From Rhodococcus tukisamuensis NBRC 100609 (GTDB taxonomy: Bacteria; Actinomycetota; Actinomycetes; Mycobacteriales; Mycobacteriaceae): DNA of 64,000 nucleotides. The notes below the pieces were generated by a model, which saw only the letters and a program-made list of their open reading frames with translations, had not been told where the DNA came from and searched no databases. Numbering within the stretch: position 1 is the first letter of the stretch; each line of letters begins with the position of its first letter. The stretch covers positions 1 through 64,000 of the forward strand of contig NZ_BCXG01000004.1 in assembly GCF_001894985.1 (NCBI RefSeq), written 5' to 3'. The position numbers and the translations under genes are program-made. Positions 51,619-59,320 of the stretch are shown one piece after another.

Positions 51619-51693
51619 ATGGGTAAGCGTGGTCGCAAGAAGCGCAGCCGTAAGGGCAACAAGGCCAACCACGGCAAGCGTCCCAACGCCTGA
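51619..51693 (+). CDS. Ribosomal protein bL37 (24 residues)
   Basis: A 24-codon gene with AGGGAAGGAG just upstream. The peptide starts MGKRGRKKRSRKGNK and is almost entirely Gly/Lys/Arg/Asn, the actinobacterial AURKAIP1/COX24-like ribosomal protein named bL37. It binds the large subunit. A strong terminator follows at 51716. It marks the left border of the secreted-protein array. Confidence 0.9.
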   Translation: MGKRGRKKRSRKGNKANHGKRPNA

Positions 51694-51715
51694 CGCGTCG
51701 TAGGTAGCAACACCC

Positions 51716-51841: not shown

Positions 51842-51847
51842 TAGGAT
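51842..51847 (+). promoter_or_regulatory. -10 box of large secreted gene A
   Basis: TAGGAT lies 80 nt before the GTG. The transcribed start (…GTTCGGGGGCATGCGATT) resembles the conserved early leader of the other array promoters (about TCGGGGGACCATTCGGT). The 18-nt upstream element present at five other array promoters is absent here. Confidence 0.45.
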
Positions 51848-51927
51848 GTCCCGAACGTGTTCGGGGGCATGCGATTCCAAGGAACCTCGGCGCGGATCCC
51901 GCGTCACCTGCCCTCGATCGGAGACCC

Positions 51928-52716
51928 GTGCCCCTCTCGTCGACAACTATGGTCCGCCCCAGCCTGCGCCGCCTCACCGCGGCGGTGGTCACCGCCGCAC
52001 TGCTCGCCGGTGGACTCGCTGCCGGCGCCGGCACCTCGGGGGCCACCGGGTCGGCGATTCTTCTCGGCGAGGCCACCGGATCCGCCGACCTCACCGCCGG
52101 ATCCTCCGGCCTGACGGCCGGGTCCACGGACCTGGTGGCTGCCACCGGGTCGTCGAGCAACAATCCCGACCTTCCCCGCACCGCCACCCGCACGGTCGAG
52201 AACGTCTCCGCCACCCGGGAAGTGATCGGCGACAACACGGGCCTGCCCGGCGACACCGTGACCTACCGCACCACCGTCGCCGCGACGGCGGCACCGGACC
52301 GTCTGGTCACCCGGATAGCCGATCTGCCCAGCCACGTCCAGGTCTACGTCCCCGGCAGCGCGAAGGTCACCTACACGGCCGCCGACGGCACCCGGACGAC
52401 CGAGGCCGTCACCCCGGTCCGGACCACCGCGGCAAACGGCCTCGACTCCTTGGCGGTCTCGGGTCCCGGTTGGCCGATCTCCGCCGAGTCCGGCGCCACG
52501 CTGGTCTACGAGATCACCTACCGGTGGACAGACGACAACGTCGTCAACCTCACCATGTTCCCCACCACGCGACTCGACACCGGCGTCGCCCTCGACGTCA
52601 CCGGACTCGGCACCGTCGGCTGGACCGCGATGGGCGCCCTCGCCGGTTGCGAGCAGTACTGCGTGTGGAGGCTGTTCGACGCATTCGAGTTCATCGGCCA
52701 ACGGTCCGGCAGCTGA
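51928..52716 (+). CDS. Large-family secreted array protein A (DUF11-like domain)
   Basis: 262 residues from GTG 51928 with CGGAGA upstream, the RBS shared by the array. A Sec signal peptide (RRLTAAVVTAALLAGGLAAGAG) leads to a Gly/Ser/Ala-rich stretch and a beta-sandwich: SATREVIGDNTGLPGDTVTY, then a SAKVTYTAADGTR strand and SGATLVYEITYRW, the DUF11-like order. The C-terminus has the family motif ALDVTGLGTVGW and a Cys pair (GCEQYCVW). This is the longest intact member. No catalytic residues are apparent; a surface or secreted structural role is only inferred. Confidence 0.8.
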   Translation: MPLSSTTMVRPSLRRLTAAVVTAALLAGGLAAGAGTSGATGSAILLGEATGSADLTAGSSGLTAGSTDLVAATGSSSNNPDLPRTATRTVENVSATREVIGDNTGLPGDTVTYRTTVAATAAPDRLVTRIADLPSHVQVYVPGSAKVTYTAADGTRTTEAVTPVRTTAANGLDSLAVSGPGWPISAESGATLVYEITYRWTDDNVVNLTMFPTTRLDTGVALDVTGLGTVGWTAMGALAGCEQYCVWRLFDAFEFIGQRSGS

Positions 52717-52853
52717 ACCACTGGGCATCGAAATGCCGTGATCCACAACGAGATTGAATGTCAGGGCACTACCTCATTCATCCAGGGCGGACCGCCTCGC
52801 GCAACTGCTCCACCGCCTTGCCGCGGGCGGACGAAGTGTCCCGAGGATGCGAT

Positions 52854-52895
52854 GCACGAGGGCCGGGGCACCGCTGCATGCCCCGGCCCTCGTGC
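52854..52895 (+). terminator. Terminator after gene A
   Basis: A 17-bp perfect stem GCACGAGGGCCGGGGCA / TGCCCCGGCCCTCGTGC with an 8-nt loop. The core GGCCGGGGCACCGC and the TCTG(G/C)C that follows match the bL37 terminator, so this is its diverged duplicate. The 137 bp between gene A and the hairpin hold no recognisable gene. Confidence 0.85.
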
Positions 52896-53123
52896 GTCTG
52901 CCGAACGGGCGGCTTCCTGACCAACGGTCGAGAGCACACCCCGACAACCGCCCGGTCGTGCGGCCGCGCAATTCCCCCGTTCGTCCACCACGTCGGGCAT
53001 CCGCCCATAGGCTGACGCGCACACGGCCGGGAGGACCAGCCGGTCTGTTTGTGCCCATGCCTTCCACTCCTTCACCCCCCCCCACTCGAACCCCTCGTCC
53101 TTCCGCTGCCGAACGGAGATCCG

Positions 53124-53262
53124 ATGCCCCGCCCGTCCCTGCTCACCCGCCCGACGGCCCGCCGCCTCGCGGATCGATCTCCGCGGCAGGCCCTCCATGG
53201 AGGACGGGGTGACCTACACCGGCGTCGGTATCGACGTCACCGGGCTGGGCACCCTGGACTGA
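53124..53262 (+). pseudogene. Remnant of a large-family gene (A')
   Basis: Starts with ATG 53124 behind GAACGGAGATCC (family RBS) and a truncated signal-peptide start (MPRPSLLTRPTARRLA). It then jumps to the C-terminal family motif in another frame (GVGIDVTGLGTLD, TGA at 53260). The whole beta-sandwich and the Cys tail are gone. The upstream promoter copy (TAGGCT near 53008, leader CGGGAGGACCAGCCGG) is still visible. Confidence 0.7.
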
Positions 53263-53349
53263 CCCCTCATGACCACCTCCTTCGGCAGCCCCCACAGGGC
53301 CCGTTCGAGAGCCGACCCAGCCAGCTCCGGCTTCCGTCGTCTAAATACC

Positions 53350-53405
53350 ATTAGACACAACAGTTTTCACAATTGCCGTCCAGGCAGGACGGTCATCCAT
53401 ACGAT
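53350..53405 (+). promoter_or_regulatory. Array promoter of small gene S1
   Basis: The upstream element TTAGACACAACAGTTTTC (53350-53367) lies 32 nt before the -10 TACGAT (53400-53405). No good -35 is present, which suggests activator dependence. The block from AAATAC (53343) through CATACGATG-CCACAGCATGGCC is nearly identical before S1, S2 and S3. Confidence 0.65.
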
Positions 53406-53478
53406 GGCCACAGCATGGCCGAGGGATCAATCTCCCGCCCCGGCTTGCATCGAAGAATTCACCCCAGAACGGAGACCC

Positions 53479-53757
53479 ATGTCCTCACCGACCCGTCCCG
53501 CGGTCCGACGTCTCGCGTCGGTCCTCGCGGCCACCGCACTGCTCACCGGCGGCATCGTCGCAGGAGCCGGCACCGCCGCAGCCAGCCTGCCCGTCACCGA
53601 CGATTGCGAGGGTCAGTACTACCCCTGCCACGGCCCACAAGGATCCGCGGAAATTGCATTGCGGGAGGCCACTACAGCCATTCTCAACCCAGTGCTGGTG
53701 CCGTTGCTGTCTGCCTACAAATCCGTTTTCAACAACACAGGCTCACTAGCCGAATGA
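53479..53757 (+). CDS. Small-family secreted array protein S1
   Basis: 92 residues from ATG 53479, preceded by AACGGAGACCC. A Sec signal peptide (RRLASVLAATALLTGG, cleavage likely after GTAAA) gives a mature peptide of about 57 residues. It contains TDDCEGQYYPC (Cys pair, 7 residues between) and a hydrophobic C-terminal half ending NPVLVPLLSAYKSVFNNTGSL. It is near-identical to S3 at the signal peptide and C-tail but differs around the cysteines. Function unknown; it resembles no family known to me. Confidence 0.82.
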   Translation: MSSPTRPAVRRLASVLAATALLTGGIVAGAGTAAASLPVTDDCEGQYYPCHGPQGSAEIALREATTAILNPVLVPLLSAYKSVFNNTGSLAE

Positions 53758-53804
53758 CGAACGAGGGCCGCCCGAGACAGCTTCCCGGGCCGCCCCCTTC
53801 GTCG
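53758..53804 (+). terminator. Degenerate terminator after S1
   Basis: An imperfect stem (ACGAGGGCCGCCCGAG against CTTCCCGGGCCGCCCCCTTCGT) corresponds position for position to the better hairpins after S2 and S3. Confidence 0.55.
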
Positions 53805-53830
53805 CATGCGGCTCTGGTCGGGGCCTATCC

Positions 53831-53905
53831 TGGCGATGATCGTGGTGATGCAGAGCTGGATCCGCAGGCGCCCACGCAGTCCGTCCGGGCGTATCCGCAT
53901 CACAC
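53831..53905 (-). pseudogene. rsrA fragment 1 (C-terminal part)
   Basis: The minus strand encodes RPDGLRGRLRIQLCITTII, matching intact RsrA residues about 69-87 ([18 protein letters not shown]). Nothing of the zinc-binding half remains. The fragment follows S1 at the distance at which intact rsrA follows S3. Confidence 0.75.
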
Positions 53906-53946
53906 CGGCTACTTGGCGCCGCGGTGCTTCGCACGGCGAATCACCG

Positions 53947-54001
53947 TTTAACAGAACAATTTCCACGTTTCGTCACCGGTCGGTCGCCGCTCTCGTACGC
54001 T
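53947..54001 (+). promoter_or_regulatory. Array promoter of large gene B
   Basis: The element TTTAACAGAACAATTTCC (53947-53964) lies 31 nt before the -10 TACGCT (53996-54001). The early leader CGCGGACCAGCCGG resembles those of genes C, D and A'. Confidence 0.6.
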
Positions 54002-54119
54002 GATCCGCGCGCAGTCGCGGACCAGCCGGAACGATTCGCCTCACGACATCGTGCTCCGCAGGGAAGTACTGGCCGCCCGCACTCGACCACGGCACCCAAC
54101 CCGAATCGGAGAACGCTGC

Positions 54120-54824
54120 ATGCCCCTCGCCACCCTCACCCGCCTCGCCGCCGCCGCGGCGACGGCCACAGTCCTGCTCCTCACCGGCACCGGGGTCGCC
54201 GGCGCCGCCGGATCGGCGGACCTGCTCAACGGCCTCGGCTCCACGGTGAACAACCCCGACCTCACCGCGACCGCCACCAAGGCGCACGGCAACCTGTCGG
54301 TCACCCGCGAGATCATCGGCAAGAACACCGGGCACGCCGGCGAAACCCTCACCTACCGCACCACGGTCTCCGCCGCCGACGGCCCCGCGCGCAACGTCAC
54401 CCGCATCAAGGAGCTCATCGAAAAGCCACACAACGGCACCTATCTCACCGAGGTCTCGGGAAAGCTCACCTACACCGACGCCACGGGTGCGCGGGTCACC
54501 GACGCCCTGCGTCCGTCCGGCATCGGCACCGTCACCGGGTCGTGGCCGGTCGACGCCGCCACCGGCGCCACCGTGGTCCACGAGACCACCTACCAGTGGA
54601 ACGATCCGAATGTGGGCCTCGGACCCAAGCCGCCCTGCTCCGGCGAGTGCCCTCCCGTGGACCCGGCGGCCCTGAACAGTTCGGTGAGCGTCGACGTCAC
54701 CGGCCTCGCCACCCTCGACTGGAACCCGACGGGAGTACTGGCCAGCTGCACCTTCGACTGCTCGAACCTCTGGCCGCTCGCTCCGGTGCTCGGGCCCTTC
54801 AGCATGCTCACCTCGCAGAGCTGA
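54120..54824 (+). CDS. Large-family secreted array protein B
   Basis: 234 residues from ATG 54120 (CGGAGA 8 nt upstream). A signal peptide (LTRLAAAAATATVLLLTGTG) is followed by the DUF11-like domain: LSVTREIIGKNTGHAGETLTY, RVTDALRPS and DAATGATVVHETTYQW. The C-terminus has NSSVSVDVTGLATLDWNPTG and a Cys pair (SCTFDCSNLW). An extra Cys pair (PPCSGECPP) lies between the domain and the motif. It is the best-preserved complete member. Confidence 0.82.
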   Translation: MPLATLTRLAAAAATATVLLLTGTGVAGAAGSADLLNGLGSTVNNPDLTATATKAHGNLSVTREIIGKNTGHAGETLTYRTTVSAADGPARNVTRIKELIEKPHNGTYLTEVSGKLTYTDATGARVTDALRPSGIGTVTGSWPVDAATGATVVHETTYQWNDPNVGLGPKPPCSGECPPVDPAALNSSVSVDVTGLATLDWNPTGVLASCTFDCSNLWPLAPVLGPFSMLTSQS

Positions 54825-54850
54825 TCGCCGCGACCACAGGCTTCCGCCGA

Positions 54851-54930
54851 CTCCGGCGCCACCGCGGTCCTCGAGATCACTGTCGGTGGATGGATTTCCG
54901 AGGCAGGCCTCCATGGAGGAGGGGGTGACC
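54851..54930 (+). pseudogene. Fragment of a large-family gene between B and S2
   Basis: CTCCGGCGCCACCGCGGTCC and the following bases encode SGATAVLEITVGGW, matching SGATLVYEITYRW of gene A. The CCTCCATGGAGGA stretch matches the A' remnant. It has no start and no continuing frame. Confidence 0.6.
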
Positions 54931-55024
54931 CCTGATGACGACCTCCTTCGGCAGGCTCCACAAGGGCCCTTTCGACAGCTGACCCCGCCGACCCTGCATC
55001 CGGCTCTCGATCGTCTAAATACAG

Positions 55025-55079
55025 TTATGCACAACGATTTTCACCGTTTCCGACCGGGCAGGCCGGTCATCCATACGAT
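55025..55079 (+). promoter_or_regulatory. Array promoter of small gene S2
   Basis: The element TTATGCACAACGATTTTC (55025-55042) lies 31 nt before the -10 TACGAT (55074-55079), with the same downstream sequence as at S1 and S3. Confidence 0.62.
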
Positions 55080-55153
55080 GGCCACAGCATGGCCGGGGGA
55101 TCAATCGCCAACTCCGGCCCGCATCGAAGAATTCACCCTACGAACGGAGACCC

Positions 55154-55438
55154 ATGCCCTCACCGACCCGTCCCGCGGTCCGACGGCTGGCGTCGGCTCT
55201 CGCCGCCACCGCACTGCTCACCGGCGGCATCGCCGCAGGAACCGGCACTGCCGCAGCCGGCCTGCCCGTCACGGACGTGTGCGGTGGCCCCCCGCCGTGC
55301 GTGCAACCCCCAACCGGATCCGCGGCAGTCGGCATGGAAGCCTTGGCATTCGTCGTCCTCCCCGTGAATTCCTGGTTCGCCGCGAACTTCACCGACGCGG
55401 GCTCACTGGACGGCGGACTACCCGGATCCGGGACCTGA
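55154..55438 (+). CDS. Small-family secreted array protein S2
   Basis: 94 residues. The signal peptide (RRLASALAATALLTGG) is the same as in S1 and S3 apart from single changes. The mature part begins GLPVTDVCGGPPPCVQPP (Cys pair). The C-terminal half (AVGMEALAFVVLPVNSWFAANFTDAGSLDGG) has diverged completely from S1 and S3, although GSL is retained. The divergence is confined to the mature region, the part exposed outside the cell. Confidence 0.82.
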   Translation: MPSPTRPAVRRLASALAATALLTGGIAAGTGTAAAGLPVTDVCGGPPPCVQPPTGSAAVGMEALAFVVLPVNSWFAANFTDAGSLDGGLPGSGT

Positions 55439-55444
55439 ACGACA

Positions 55445-55485
55445 GACGAGGGCCGTCCCGGGACACTTCCGGGGCGGCCCTCGTC
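55445..55485 (+). terminator. Terminator after S2
   Basis: A 17-bp stem with one mismatch (GACGAGGGCCGTCCCGG / CCGGGGCGGCCCTCGTC), 7-nt loop. Confidence 0.85.
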
Positions 55486-55486
55486 G

Positions 55487-55545
55487 TCGCTGCTGAGCTA
55501 GCTTTCCAGATCGGCGGTCGGGGCGAGGATCGTGTGGTGCGCAGT
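55487..55545 (-). pseudogene. rsrA fragment 2 (3' tip)
   Basis: TGCTGAGCTAG then CCAGATCGGCGGTCGGGGCGAGG match the DNA that follows S3 and runs into the last 15 or so codons of intact rsrA. It is the shortest fragment. The similarity stops about 10 bp before the promoter element of gene C. Confidence 0.6.
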
Positions 55546-55555
55546 CGAAATACTG

Positions 55556-55610
55556 TTCAACAGAACACTTTTCGAGTTTCACGTCACCCACCGCTCCCAC
55601 CCGCTACGAT
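55556..55610 (+). promoter_or_regulatory. Array promoter of large gene C
   Basis: The element TTCAACAGAACACTTTTC (55556-55573) lies 31 nt before the -10 TACGAT (55605-55610). The leader GGTCGGGGGACCATTCGGT is shared with gene D. Confidence 0.62.
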
Positions 55611-55747
55611 GACTCGCACGCGGTCGGGGGACCATTCGGTGCGTTTTCGTGCCTCTACGGCTCGGTCCTCCAGGCCGCACACCGTCCAGACGCGATGCGC
55701 AGGAGATCGCGCGTCTGCCGACCAGCAGACACATTCCTCTCACCCTC

Positions 55748-56467
55748 ATGCCACGATCCTCGGTCTTCCGCCGCACTCGCGGCGGCAGACGCGGGCTCGC
55801 CCGCCTCGTCACGGTGGCCGCGACCGCCCTCCTCGCCACCGGCGCAGTGACCGGAGTCGCAGGCGCAGCCGGATCCGCAGACCTCGGCTCGCTGTCAGAC
55901 GACTCGTCACGGACCGCGACGAAGGTGTACGACAACATCACCGTCACCCGCGAGATCGTCGACACGAACGTCGGACTCCCCGGCGACACCTTCACCTACC
56001 GCACCACCATCTCTGCCGTCGACGGCCCCGCCCGTCAGGTCACCCGCATCGAGGAAACTCCTGAAGGCCCGGCACCGCGCCTCCGCAACTGCTACCACCG
56101 AACCGGCGCCACAGTGACGTACACGGATGCAACCGGTAGCCGAGTCACCGATACCGTCATGCGCGTGGCCGCGACCGGTTCGTGGACCGTCGATGCCGCC
56201 ACGGGCGCCACCGTGGTCTACGAGAGCACGTACCTGGATCGATCCGAACATCGGCACCATGGAGGGAATTGATTGCGGGGTCCGTGTCCGTCCGTGGACT
56301 CGGTGGACCTCGACACCGCGGTGAGCATCGACATCAGCGGCCTCGGCACCCTCGACTGGCACCCGACCGGCGTGACAGCCACCTGCCTCTCCAGCTGCAG
56401 CTCGATGCTGACCGCGCCGCTCCAAATTGCACGCGACCCCCTGCGGCTGTTCACCGCACAGAGCTGA
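55748..56467 (+). pseudogene. Large-family gene C, frameshifted
   Basis: The frame from ATG 55748 encodes a signal peptide and the full beta-sandwich (ITVTREIVDTNVGLPGDTFTY to DAATGATVVYESTY), then stops at 56270. The family sequence continues in the +1 frame as WIDPNIGTMEGIDCG, and from 56273 in the original frame as DTAVSIDISGLGTLDWHPTG with the Cys pair TCLSSC, ending at 56467. Two compensating indels about 60 nt apart explain this. No GGAGA precedes the ATG. It is a decaying gene, or has sequencing errors. Confidence 0.72.
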
Positions 56468-56474
56468 CCACCGC

Positions 56475-56685
56475 GCCTGTCGGGGGCGTGCTCACCTCCA
56501 CACTTGCGGGCGAGCAGCGACTTCACCTTGGCCTCGATGCGTACGCCTCGAAGCAGGATCCGCAGTCCTTCATGTGCCGGCGCAGCCAGCGCGGGTGGAC
56601 TCGTTGCACTCGTTGTCCAGCATCAATCAGACGTCGGCGATCACCACAGAGCAGTCCAACTTCTCGAACTCGTTGGAATGCGACC
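56475..56685 (-). pseudogene. rsrA fragment 3 (zinc motif to middle)
   Basis: The minus strand retains RRHMKDCGSCFEAY, the HxxxCxxC anti-sigma zinc motif, then after a frame change [15 protein letters not shown], matching intact RsrA residues about 37-70. Frameshifts disrupt it and its start region is degraded. It is the longest of the four fragments. Confidence 0.8.
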
Positions 56686-56828
56686 GGAGTCCCCTCGGTG
56701 GGCTGCGACCCGAGCGAGGATTCGACAAACATGGACTCCGGGATTGCCGTCCCGGCAGACGGCCCCGACCCCCTCACCTGGGCCACGGCGAATCCGTCAA
56801 TTCGCCTTCTCGACCGCCGCGTATGGGC

Positions 56829-56834
56829 TAGCGT
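56829..56834 (+). promoter_or_regulatory. -10 box of large gene D
   Basis: TAGCGT followed by the conserved early leader AGTCGGGGGACCAATCGGT. The 18-nt upstream element expected 31 nt before it is missing, so gene D may have lost its activator input. The 56686-56820 stretch shows no gene. Confidence 0.45.
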
Positions 56835-56928
56835 TCCGCGCCAGAGTCGGGGGACCAATCGGTATGTTTCGGTGTCGCCACGTCCTCCGCCTCCTGACCG
56901 TTCACCACACGACCACCCAGGAGAACCC

Positions 56929-57624
56929 GTGCCCCACACCTCGCAGCGGCGACGCGGCACAGCCGCCCGACTCGCCACTGCCACCGCAGCCGCAGCACTC
57001 ATCGCCGCGAGCGTCACCGGCATCGCCACAGCCCAGTCCGCCGACACCGGGTCCGCGAACACAAAGCGCGCCACCACGACCCACGACAACCTCACCGTCA
57101 CCCACGAGGTCATCGGTAGCAATATCGGATTGGAGGGTGACGAAATCCACTACCGCACAACCATCTCCGCAACCGACGGCCCCGCGCGACAGGTCACCGG
57201 GATCGCCGAAGGCCTCGTGGATCTGGTGGGTTGCTACGCAACGTGGACGACGGCGAAGTCCGGGACCGTGACGTACACAAACAATTCGGGTGAGCGGGTG
57301 TCCGAATCCATGCCACGCAACGGCTACAGCTACCCGGCGGTCGGATCATGGACCGTCGACCCCGCAGCGGGAACAACCGTCGTCTACGACACCGTCCGCG
57401 AATTCAATTCCACGCTCGGAGGGTTCGCCGTGGGTTGCGACTGGGCCGGCAATGCGAGCCCGTCGAACATCGACGCCGTGCTGACCGTCCGAGTGGACGG
57501 TCTCGACACGCTCGATTGGCGCCCGACCGGCGTCACCGCGACCTGCGCCTCCTCCTGCCTCATCCCCGGCAGCCCTGCCGGTTCGCTCGACATGGTGCTC
57601 GGCTCCGCATTGTTCGGGAGCTGA
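56929..57624 (+). CDS. Large-family secreted array protein D
   Basis: 231 residues from GTG 56929 with CAGGAGA upstream. A signal peptide (RLATATAAAALIAASVTGIATA) precedes the beta-sandwich: LTVTHEVIGSNIGLEGDEIHY, GTVTYTNNSGERV and DPAAGTTVVYDT. The C-terminus has LTVRVDGLDTLDWRPTGV and a Cys pair (TCASSCLIPG). Two further Cys (VGCYATW, VGCDWAG) are specific to D. It is intact but diverged from A and B. Confidence 0.8.
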   Translation: MPHTSQRRRGTAARLATATAAAALIAASVTGIATAQSADTGSANTKRATTTHDNLTVTHEVIGSNIGLEGDEIHYRTTISATDGPARQVTGIAEGLVDLVGCYATWTTAKSGTVTYTNNSGERVSESMPRNGYSYPAVGSWTVDPAAGTTVVYDTVREFNSTLGGFAVGCDWAGNASPSNIDAVLTVRVDGLDTLDWRPTGVTATCASSCLIPGSPAGSLDMVLGSALFGS

Positions 57625-57626
57625 CC

Positions 57627-57697
57627 CGCCCGGGCCCAGGTGGCGTGGCCGCGTTCGTTGCCGAGCACGATCCATCCGTCCGCGATCATTGCAACTC
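57627..57697 (-). pseudogene. rsrA fragment 4 (N-terminal part)
   Basis: The minus strand encodes VAMIADGWIVLGNERGHATW, matching intact RsrA residues about 14-33 ([18 protein letters not shown]). It begins directly after the stop of gene D. Confidence 0.75.
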
Positions 57698-57721
57698 GCC
57701 CCCTCGATTGGCGAAATACCA

Positions 57722-57776
57722 TTAGACACAATGGTTTTCGCATTTACCGACAGGACAGGCCGGCCATCCATACGAT
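57722..57776 (+). promoter_or_regulatory. Array promoter of small gene S3
   Basis: The element TTAGACACAATGGTTTTC (57722-57739) lies 31 nt before the -10 TACGAT (57771-57776). Here the surrounding ACCATT-N6-AATGGT is palindromic. Confidence 0.65.
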
Positions 57777-57849
57777 GACCACAGCATGGCCGGGCGATCA
57801 CCCTCCCCGCTCCGGCCCGCATATCGAATTCGCCCCAGAACGGAGACCC

Positions 57850-58131
57850 ATGTCCTCACCGACCCGTCCCGCAGTCCGACGTCTCGCGTCGGCCCTCGCG
57901 GCCACCGCACTGCTCACCGGCGGCATCGTCGCAGGAACCGGCACCGCCGCAGCCAGCCTGCCCGTCACGGACGTGTGCGGCGGTGGCGGCTGCGAACAAC
58001 CACCCGGATCCGCGGAGATTGCACTGAATTCCGGTTTGTCTGCCCTTGCTGCCGTCGTCAACCCAGTGCTGGTGCCCGTGCTGTCTGTCTACCAGTCAGT
58101 CTTCGGCAATACTGGCTCGCTAGCGGAATGA
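57850..58131 (+). CDS. Small-family secreted array protein S3
   Basis: 93 residues from ATG 57850 (CGGAGACCC). A Sec signal peptide, then SLPVTDVCGGGGCEQPPGSA with the Cys pair (4 residues between) and a hydrophobic helix region LSALAAVVNPVLVPVLSVYQ. The C-tail VFGNTGSLAE equals that of S1 with one change. It is closest to intact rsrA and may represent the parental copy of the duplications. Confidence 0.82.
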   Translation: MSSPTRPAVRRLASALAATALLTGGIVAGTGTAAASLPVTDVCGGGGCEQPPGSAEIALNSGLSALAAVVNPVLVPVLSVYQSVFGNTGSLAE

Positions 58132-58134
58132 CGC

Positions 58135-58170
58135 ACGAGGGCCGCCCGGGAATCCCCGGGCGACCCTCGT
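58135..58170 (+). terminator. Terminator after S3
   Basis: A 16-bp stem with one mismatch (ACGAGGGCCGCCCGGG / CCCGGGCGACCCTCGT), 4-nt loop. It separates S3 from the convergent rsrA. Confidence 0.85.
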
Positions 58171-58199: not shown

Positions 58200-58484
58200 C
58201 TAGTTGCCCAGATCGGTGGTCGTGGTGATGATCGTGGTGGTGCGAAGCTGGATCCGCAGCCGCTCCCGCAGCCCGTCCGGGGCGTGCTCGCCGCCGCACT
58301 TGCGGTTCACCAGAGACTTCACCTTCTCCTCGATGCCGTAGGCGGCCAGGCAGGACCCGCAGTCCTCGATGTGCCGTTGCAGCCGGGCGCGGGTGGCGTG
58401 GTCACACTCGTTGTCGAGCATCAGCCACACGTCCGCGATCACCGCGGAGCAGTCCAACTGCTCGAATTCGTCCTGCTCGCTCAC
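58200..58484 (-). CDS. rsrA: RsrA/RshA zinc-binding anti-sigma factor
   Basis: 94 residues from GTG 58484, overlapping the sigH stop as GTGA. The redox zinc motif HIEDCGSC (His38, Cys42, Cys45) and a further Cys (12) fit the ZAS family. It holds SigH inactive until disulfide formation releases it. Translational coupling keeps the ratio fixed. Pieces of this gene recur upstream in the array. Confidence 0.93.
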
Positions 58485-59140
58485 CGGGACGCCTCCTGCT
58501 CCTGGTCTGCGGTCGGCGCCGCGGCGCCGCTCCGGTTGAATCCACGTTCGCGCGCCACGCCGGCGAGCAGTCCGCGCAGCTGCTTGCGCCCCCGGTGCAG
58601 GCGCGACATCACCGTGCCGATCGGCGTGCCCATGATCTCCGCGATCTCCTTGTACGGGAAGCCCTCGACGTCGGCGTAGTACACCGCCATCCGGAACTCC
58701 TCCGGCAGCTCCTGCAGCGCGGCCTTGATGTCGTCGTCGGGCAGCAGGTCCAGGGCCTCCACCTCCGCGGACCGCAGCCCGGTCGAGGTGTGCTCTGCCG
58801 TCGCGGCGAGCTGCCAGTCGGTGATCTCGTCCGTCGGGTACTGCGCCGGCTGCCGCTGCTTCTTGCGGTAGGAGTTGATGTAGGTGTTGGTGAGGATGCG
58901 GTACAGCCAGGCCTTGAGGTTCGTGCCCGCCTTGAACGAGCGGAACGCGGAGTAGGCCTTGATGAAGGTCTCCTGCACCAGGTCCTCGGCGTCGGCCGGG
59001 TTGCGCGTCATCCGGAGCGCCGCACCGTAGAGCTGGTCCAGCATCGGCAGCGCGTCGCGCTCGAAGCGCGCGGTCAGCTGCTCACTCGACTCGTCCTCCG
59101 GGCGTGCGTCGAGAACTGGTTCTGGCCGGTCGTCAGGCAC
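58481..59140 (-). CDS. sigH: SigH/SigR ECF sigma factor for thiol-oxidative stress
   Basis: 219 residues from GTG 59140, which follows GGAAGGG. Region 2 is [20 protein letters not shown] with [20 protein letters not shown]; region 4 has [20 protein letters not shown]. It closely follows M. tuberculosis SigH. The frame stays open upstream (ATG 59155 and further candidates to 59296), so a longer isoform like Streptomyces sigma-R' is possible. It is preceded by a promoter of its own class and is cotranscribed with rsrA. Confidence 0.94.
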
Positions 59141-59293
59141 GCTGATCCCTTCCATCGGGGTAGAGATCAAGGCTACCGCGGCGACCCGTCTGTCCGTGGG
59201 CCGCTCCTCGCACAGCACCGGCACGTGCACTCCTTCGTTCGGTGGCATCCGTCGTGGTGACCTCGCCAGCTCGGTGACGCCACTTGTCGGGTG

Positions 59294-59320
59294 CAACGCC
59301 TCCCCCGCATCCCGTGTTCC
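59294..59320 (-). promoter_or_regulatory. Autoregulatory SigH promoter
   Basis: GGAAC (59320-59316), 18 nt and GTTG (59297-59294) on the minus strand fit the SigR/SigH consensus. The transcript would start near 59287, giving about 150 nt before GTG 59140. It overlaps the short gap to the divergent ybaK promoter. Confidence 0.8.

Follow-up and report, generated by a model that had tools for sequence, protein, structure and literature searches.

The window analysed here is a stretch of 64,000 nucleotides (nt) of Rhodococcus tukisamuensis NBRC 100609 (contig NZ_BCXG01000004.1, positions 1 to 64,000), which at 51842..58170 holds an array of genes for two kinds of exported protein, large and small. 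Large genes A, B and D are intact, large gene C is broken, A' is a relic, and S1, S2 and S3 are small genes. The composition given in the initial annotation, with C frameshifted and A' gutted, stands at these coordinates. The array is flanked to the left by whiB, pdtaS, a biotinyl carrier gene and the gene of ribosomal protein bL37, and to the right by rsrA and the gene of an extracytoplasmic function (ECF)-type sigma factor, which we take to be sigH. The assembly has 66 contigs and the whole array is inside a single contig. In their order along the window the features are:

51620-51694, + strand: ribosomal protein bL37, 24 amino acids (aa), left border; matches chains named bL37 in solved ribosomes (E 1.4e-7)
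51928-52716, + strand: large gene A, with signal peptide, GS-rich linker, immunoglobulin (Ig)-like domain, Cys pair and the end RSGS
53171-53317, + strand: relic A', the tail of a gene whose intact counterpart is in R. oryzae (L102:8091-8756; 84% over 151 nt)
53340-53428, + strand: promoter-like block upstream of S1 (nhmmer E 1.3e-20, model-building row)
53479-53757, + strand: small gene S1, 92 aa, with a Cys pair past the signal
53828-53889, + strand: relic of the rsrA 3' region (85% over 62 nt)
53936-54022, + strand: promoter-like block upstream of B (nhmmer E 6.3e-16, model-building row)
54120-54824, + strand: large gene B, with Cys pairs and the end TSQS
54843-54990, + strand: second A'-type (R. 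oryzae-type) relic, downstream of B (85% over 86 nt, 78% over 68 nt)
55014-55102, + strand: promoter-like block upstream of S2 (nhmmer E 1.5e-21, model-building row)
55154-55438, + strand: small gene S2, 94 aa
55544-55633, + strand: promoter-like block upstream of C (nhmmer E 1.9e-17, model-building row)
55748-56467, + strand: large gene C, broken, with a frame disruption, an in-frame TGA and a displaced ribosome-binding site
56471-56673, + strand: rsrA relic (81% over 206 nt; the source gene is on the - strand)
56929-57624, + strand: large gene D, with a GTG start, a Cys pair and the tag-like end ALFGS
57630-57688, + strand: rsrA relic (80% over 59 nt)
57711-57799, + strand: promoter-like block upstream of S3 (nhmmer E 7.6e-22, model-building row)
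57850-58131, + strand: small gene S3, 93 aa
58203-58484, - strand: rsrA-like anti-sigma factor (zf-HC2), right border
58481-59296, - strand: ECF-type sigma factor (sigH)

The array proteins carry Sec-type export signals, as called by eye and by a simple rule, and their cysteine pairs lie where the initial annotation had placed them, near the mature N-terminus of the small proteins and near the C-terminus of the large ones. The ribosome-binding site GGAGA, previously ascribed to all of the genes, precedes A, B, D and S1 to S3; in C it sits approximately 40 nt upstream of the ATG and is out of place. Gene A has a GTG start 3 nt past its GGAGA and an in-frame ATG at 51949. The alternation of large and small genes is partial, as there is no small gene between C and D and relics are interspersed.

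Repeats between 51.5 and 59 kb include a 144-nt family of four copies (67–81% to the reference copy) and a 159-nt family of three copies (85–94%), both far beyond chance. The four-copy families correspond to the large genes and the three-copy families to the small genes; proteins A and B match at E 8e-33. Within the array are three relics of the 3' part of rsrA (53828-53889, 56471-56673 and 57630-57688), which were absent from the initial annotation, and the duplication breakpoints are therefore placed inside rsrA. Two further candidates, at 53757-53805 and 55446-55513, were rejected as rsrA relics, being the region downstream of the small genes. The last gene of the R. oryzae array is present here as two relics, one of which (A') still has its ribosome-binding site and signal start near 53110-53160. 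One gene type was thus lost twice. The island grows by tandem duplication and decays. Growth would have been local and would have taken place in at least two species, here with breakpoints in rsrA, and copies would be shed as pseudogenes.

Eight related loci were compared over the interval between bL37, or the carrier gene, and rsrA. The R. oryzae locus has five large genes (O1 to O5) and that of R. maanshanensis has one, neither with a small gene. R. triatomae has a 63-aa reading frame that corresponds to a large-type C-terminus and ends in YVFGS, again without a small gene. The R. sp. RD6.2 locus has a YCII-domain gene (L106:3521-3925) in place of the array, with the carrier gene on one side and rsrA on the other; the R. 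spelaei and G072 loci are empty, with bL37 adjoining rsrA; about 290 base pairs (bp) separate rsrA from the carrier gene in Prescottella defluvii; and the G006 locus has no array gene and no carrier or bL37 match either. An array gene is missing from five of the eight loci, so the island varies in content while its position is constant. A tree of 21 proteins groups the array members of three species in a single clade (100/99), within which B pairs with D and O1 with O4, each within its own species. R. oryzae O2 and O3 fall outside this clade on long branches and their placement is unsure.

A repeat next to rsrA that is unstable, and whose copies come and go without any function, would likewise account for the broken gene C, the pair of relics of a single gene type, the three rsrA relics and the majority of related loci that lack an array gene. 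Such neutral debris is considered quite unlikely, given that three large and three small frames are still open with ribosome-binding sites, most of them with a conserved upstream block, and that many family members elsewhere in the genome also remain open.

Each large protein is a single Ig-like (DUF11-like) domain on a glycine- and serine-rich linker. Protein A is modelled by AlphaFold2 as an Ig-like sandwich, with a predicted local distance difference test score (pLDDT) mostly above 90 over about residues 71–190 and 211–230. None of A, B and D reaches a Pfam or NCBIfam cut-off. Within the R. tukisamuensis genome, a search with protein A gave 12 matches at E<=0.001, some of them short, and one with the large-family profile gave 35, a figure that overstates the number of large genes because the profile also matches bare signal peptides. 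The profile has matches in all six genomes sampled from the genus (that of R. tukisamuensis and those of R. triatomae, R. maanshanensis, R. oryzae, R. sp. RD6.2 and R. spelaei) and in 3 of 200 genomes from the order, these three including R. tukisamuensis itself and one weak signal-peptide match. The large family is expanded in this Rhodococcus clade. Copy number and sequence differ between species, and there is local turnover with species-specific duplicates, which would also be consistent with diversified effectors or antigens under selection, for instance in phage or host recognition, that have no anchoring role. This is unlikely, as the identified neighbours of the array are housekeeping or regulatory and the fold is a generic Ig-like one.

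A conserved promoter-like block of approximately 90 nt precedes S1, S2, S3, B, C, R. oryzae O1 and O5, and the R. maanshanensis gene; a model was built from these eight sequences. It was searched against 218 sequences (1.19 Mb, some overlapping and most chosen for holding family genes, five duplicate loci having been dropped). Nine further matches were found at E<=0.05, eight of them 33–67 bp upstream of a large-family start and one not. The eight include a weak match upstream of A; none was found upstream of D in this search. From their coordinates, the S1 to S3 blocks end about 50 nt before the start codons. Because most of the array genes have their own promoter-like block, they look like separate transcription units. 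An operon of large-small pairs was rejected on the same grounds, the upstream blocks being separate.

The small genes have their upstream region in common with the large genes O5 and that of R. maanshanensis (z of 12–25 against shuffles), and their signal-peptide DNA in common with A and O4 (z of 6–14). The mature parts have no counterpart among the large genes, with z no higher than 2.6 against shuffles. By sequence, the small genes look like the 5' end of a large-type gene joined to new mature sequence. Their origin may lie in a fusion to which a large-type gene contributed its promoter region, leader and signal peptide, the short mature sequence being new.

Searches for the small family were made within the genus, with 15 further genomes for whole S3. 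A profile of the mature small proteins found nothing better than E 0.27 in the five relatives or E 0.25 in the rest of the R. tukisamuensis genome; among the six genomes only S1 to S3 were found. S3 with its signal peptide matches small exported proteins in the five relatives (E 1e-6 to 1e-3), in one case over residues 6–90 at 40%, and has no match in the 15 genomes from outside the genus. The matches in the relatives probably reflect a common signal peptide and composition, as no significant match is obtained with the mature part by itself. A conserved partner role for the small family was rejected, as the mature-small profile has no significant match in the five relatives, even though S3 with its signal peptide does match weakly there. 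A single-chain model of a small protein has a mean pLDDT of 51 and is uninformative. Separately, a cluster of tiny exported proteins is found at L031 (G000 C32:1-12000); their signal peptides are of the same type, and they also have GS motifs and a hydrophobic stretch. Several of them have a Cys pair near the C-terminus, and their mature sequence is unlike that of S1 to S3.

The two families, the decay of some copies and the diversification that the initial annotation described are all present at the locus; the pairing of the families is not borne out. That each large protein forms a complex with the adjacent small one, as a two-component secreted system in the manner of PorA with PorH, would fit the alternation of the genes in the window and the common upstream block, which suggests co-expression. 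It is nonetheless highly improbable. Neither of the two other loci with intact large genes, R. oryzae with five and R. maanshanensis with one, holds a small gene, the mature-small profile found S1 to S3 alone among the six genomes, and D follows C without an intervening small gene.

The large family has a common C-terminal tail. The initial annotation was right that signal peptides and C-tails are conserved, with the difference that the tail is a feature of the large family and of unrelated exported proteins rather than of the small genes. Among 74 core-domain proteins recovered from the fetched loci, 63 end in serine and 42 in Gly-Ser. Without the truncated C, 63/73 end in serine and 34/73 have a terminal [FLIM][GSA]S or SS; when thinned to <=50% identity the values are 19/24 and 10/24, as against 3/38 and 0/38 for the background genes of the window.

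The DNA was also searched independently of the family for Phe-Gly-Ser-stop, using TTYGGNTCNTGA, which covers one Ser codon box and one stop only. There are 11 sites in the R. tukisamuensis genome and 82 in the five relatives, 93 in total, versus 17 for the reversed pattern; a permuted Gly-Phe-Ser pattern gives 3 sites in the R. tukisamuensis genome, in open reading frames (ORFs) of 5, 5 and 6 codons. All 93 sites were read. After 26 ORFs shorter than 60 aa and 13 more judged by eye as non-coding were removed, 54 coding ORFs remained, of which 46 have a Sec- or twin-arginine translocation (Tat)-type signal, 5 are not exported and 3 are cut by contig ends. An export signal is therefore present in 46 of 51 evaluable tagged ORFs (41 by rule within the locus and 5 with starts in the overlapping loci L194, L034, L195 and L118); 3/38 background genes are signal-positive under a similar, stricter rule limited to the first 60 codons. 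The five non-exported tag bearers are an M20 peptidase, two enoyl-CoA hydratases (the second, in L317, judged from its tail), an aldehyde dehydrogenase and a pyridine nucleotide oxidoreductase.

In the 49 exported or cut proteins there is glycine at -9 in 39, serine at -8 in 33, and isoleucine or leucine at -4 in 29, and a further Gly-Ser shortly before FGS is seen in 45 of them versus 2 of the 5 non-exported. The tail consensus is GSLx[SN][IL]FGS-COOH, fixed in position relative to the C-terminus and degenerate in much of the array. Its bearers include GH25, two type I phosphodiesterases, PhoX and an Exo_endo_phos-Big_3_5 protein; 5 of 10 scanned have no Pfam match. NCBIfam tail models gave no match in the 20 proteins scanned. 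Across 201 genomes of the family, the F-G-S-stop pattern exceeds its reversed control in g80 (271 vs 100), g68 (173 vs 43), g77, g4 and g19, and no excess was found in g3, g6, g17 and g18.

Individual tag bearers include L195:2097-4082 (G000 C20), which has a Tat-like signal, an Exo_endo_phos domain, Big_3_5 repeats and the end GSLENLFGS. Exported proteins of two species, at L242 and L282, have the end GGLGDFGSSANPFGS, that at L242 being GH25 by Pfam. In another genus (G072), an exported reading frame at a family-profile match (L201:4039-4776) has the tail end SSTGSIADMLGSVLRSMLGS.

The large proteins may serve as adhesins or coat proteins exposed on the cell envelope, with the tail acting as a C-terminal envelope-anchoring signal for the family and for the unrelated exported enzymes. 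Most likely, a mycoloyltransferase would esterify mycolic acid to a serine of the tail, so that the protein is tethered in the mycomembrane. The tag is read as a mycomembrane-anchoring signal because of the literature on mycoloylation in Corynebacterium glutamicum. PorH ends in NFSS, with the mycolate on Ser56, and PorB shares this end; in ProtX the mycolate is on the penultimate Ser37 (PMC5310785). The mapped sites lie among serine, glycine and alanine (PMC11066868), MytC alone modifies PorA in vitro (PMC11927696), and PorH and ProtX seem to be cell-wall linked (PMC12632848). Mycoloylation favours the envelope association of PorB and PorC (PMC5310785).

On balance, the array is probably a birth-and-death island of a lineage-specific family of exported Ig-like proteins, placed between bL37 and rsrA, with the tail as a proposed envelope anchor that is perhaps mycoloylated. 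The broader proposal is that mycolate-bearing actinobacteria use GSLx[SN][IL]FGS-COOH as a true C-terminal sorting signal, read by a mycoloyltransferase and esterified in its terminal serine region, through which Sec- and Tat-exported adhesins and enzymes are anchored in the mycomembrane. This is possible and is put forward tentatively. The Gly-Ser-rich tail could instead mark a different sorting route, for example one that links the protein covalently to arabinogalactan-peptidoglycan or one in which an outer-membrane insertion factor recognises the tail, or it could simply be an end that resists proteases. The fixed position of the motif relative to the C-terminus is as in sorting signals in general; the closest documented C-terminal analogue, the NFSS end of PorH, holds a mycoloylation site, and these other roles are rather doubtful.

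Several points weigh against this explanation of the array and its tag. We know of no demonstrated protein O-mycoloylation in Rhodococcus. The tag is weakest at the array itself, where D alone has the full F-G-S end, A ends in SGS, B and C end in QS, and S1 to S3 lack a terminal serine. The structural matches have no standout, integrin and toxin Ig-like domains scoring about equally. Because members of the family are related to one another, the counts lack independence and all are inflated. Two automatic rules had first given 35 and 13; the second was visibly wrong, as it rejected ORFs with clear signals, and the 54 coding ORFs were then called by eye. The signal rule considered every start in tagged ORFs and only the first 60 codons of background genes, and three of its false positives were removed by hand. 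In the weakest genome, G004, there are 13 sites versus 8 for the reversed control, and the excess in the other genera consists of site counts only. PorA and PorH do not need the modification and remained in the envelope without it (PMC5310785), and the site in either PorA or PorH is singly dispensable for assembly, though not both (PMC12632848). A strict consensus for O-mycoloylation was not found, according to PMC11066868 and PMC5310785. The one remark on mycoloylation met in a Rhodococcus paper is a speculation (PMC9233653).

The tag is a directly testable candidate for a signal that addresses proteins to the mycomembrane, with 46 of 51 evaluable bearers exported, several unrelated folds and six genomes represented. 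If the proposal is true, the tag would be a sequence-defined address label for the mycomembrane, and the array beside sigH-rsrA one site of cargo diversification. The array provides the raw material: at one constant chromosomal position, genes for exported proteins have been copied and disrupted, and new mature parts appear to have been placed behind an older promoter region and signal peptide. In the titles and abstracts of the open-licence literature searched, no description of such a C-terminal motif was found.

Proteins with DUF11 / B_ant_repeat (PF01345, TIGR01451) and RrgB-type isopeptide (TIGR04226) domains are likewise exported, with an Ig-like sandwich and surface Ig domains. A paralogue at L032:8554-9318 passes TIGR01451 (25.3 bits vs a cut-off of 24) and falls below TIGR04226 (26 vs 30), while A, B and D have no match to either at E<=1. 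Unlike the DUF11 and RrgB-type proteins, the array proteins have a single domain and no LPXTG-type tail. Several tagged paralogues bear the repeats of Big_3_5 (PF16640) surface proteins, which A, B and D lack. The F-G-S end was not found in the longest ORF of 29 Big_3_5 loci outside the genus, this ORF not always being the matching one and some running off the locus. Big_3_5 is numerous in the R. tukisamuensis genome (32 matches scored), with one weak match or none in the listed genomes of other genera in the family.

LPXTG and PEP-CTERM are C-terminal sorting signals, and the tag resembles them as a short C-terminal motif on unrelated exported proteins. It differs from them in that the tag C-termini inspected have no transmembrane helix or basic tail. 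Sortase substrates were rejected, as no LPXTG-like motif, transmembrane helix or basic tail is present in the 74 C-termini inspected. The tail ends also resemble those of O-mycoloylated proteins of C. glutamicum. PorA and PorH are proteins of 45 and 57 residues without a signal sequence, unlike the tagged exported proteins, and the likeness to PorA, PorH, PorB and ProtX is one of tail ends, with no homology seen and modification proposed for the proteins described here. PorH, PorB and ProtX have a serine at or next to the C-terminus, as in the tag, and the NFSS end of PorH and PorB resembles the FGS and FSS ends found here, both in the mycolate-bearing group.

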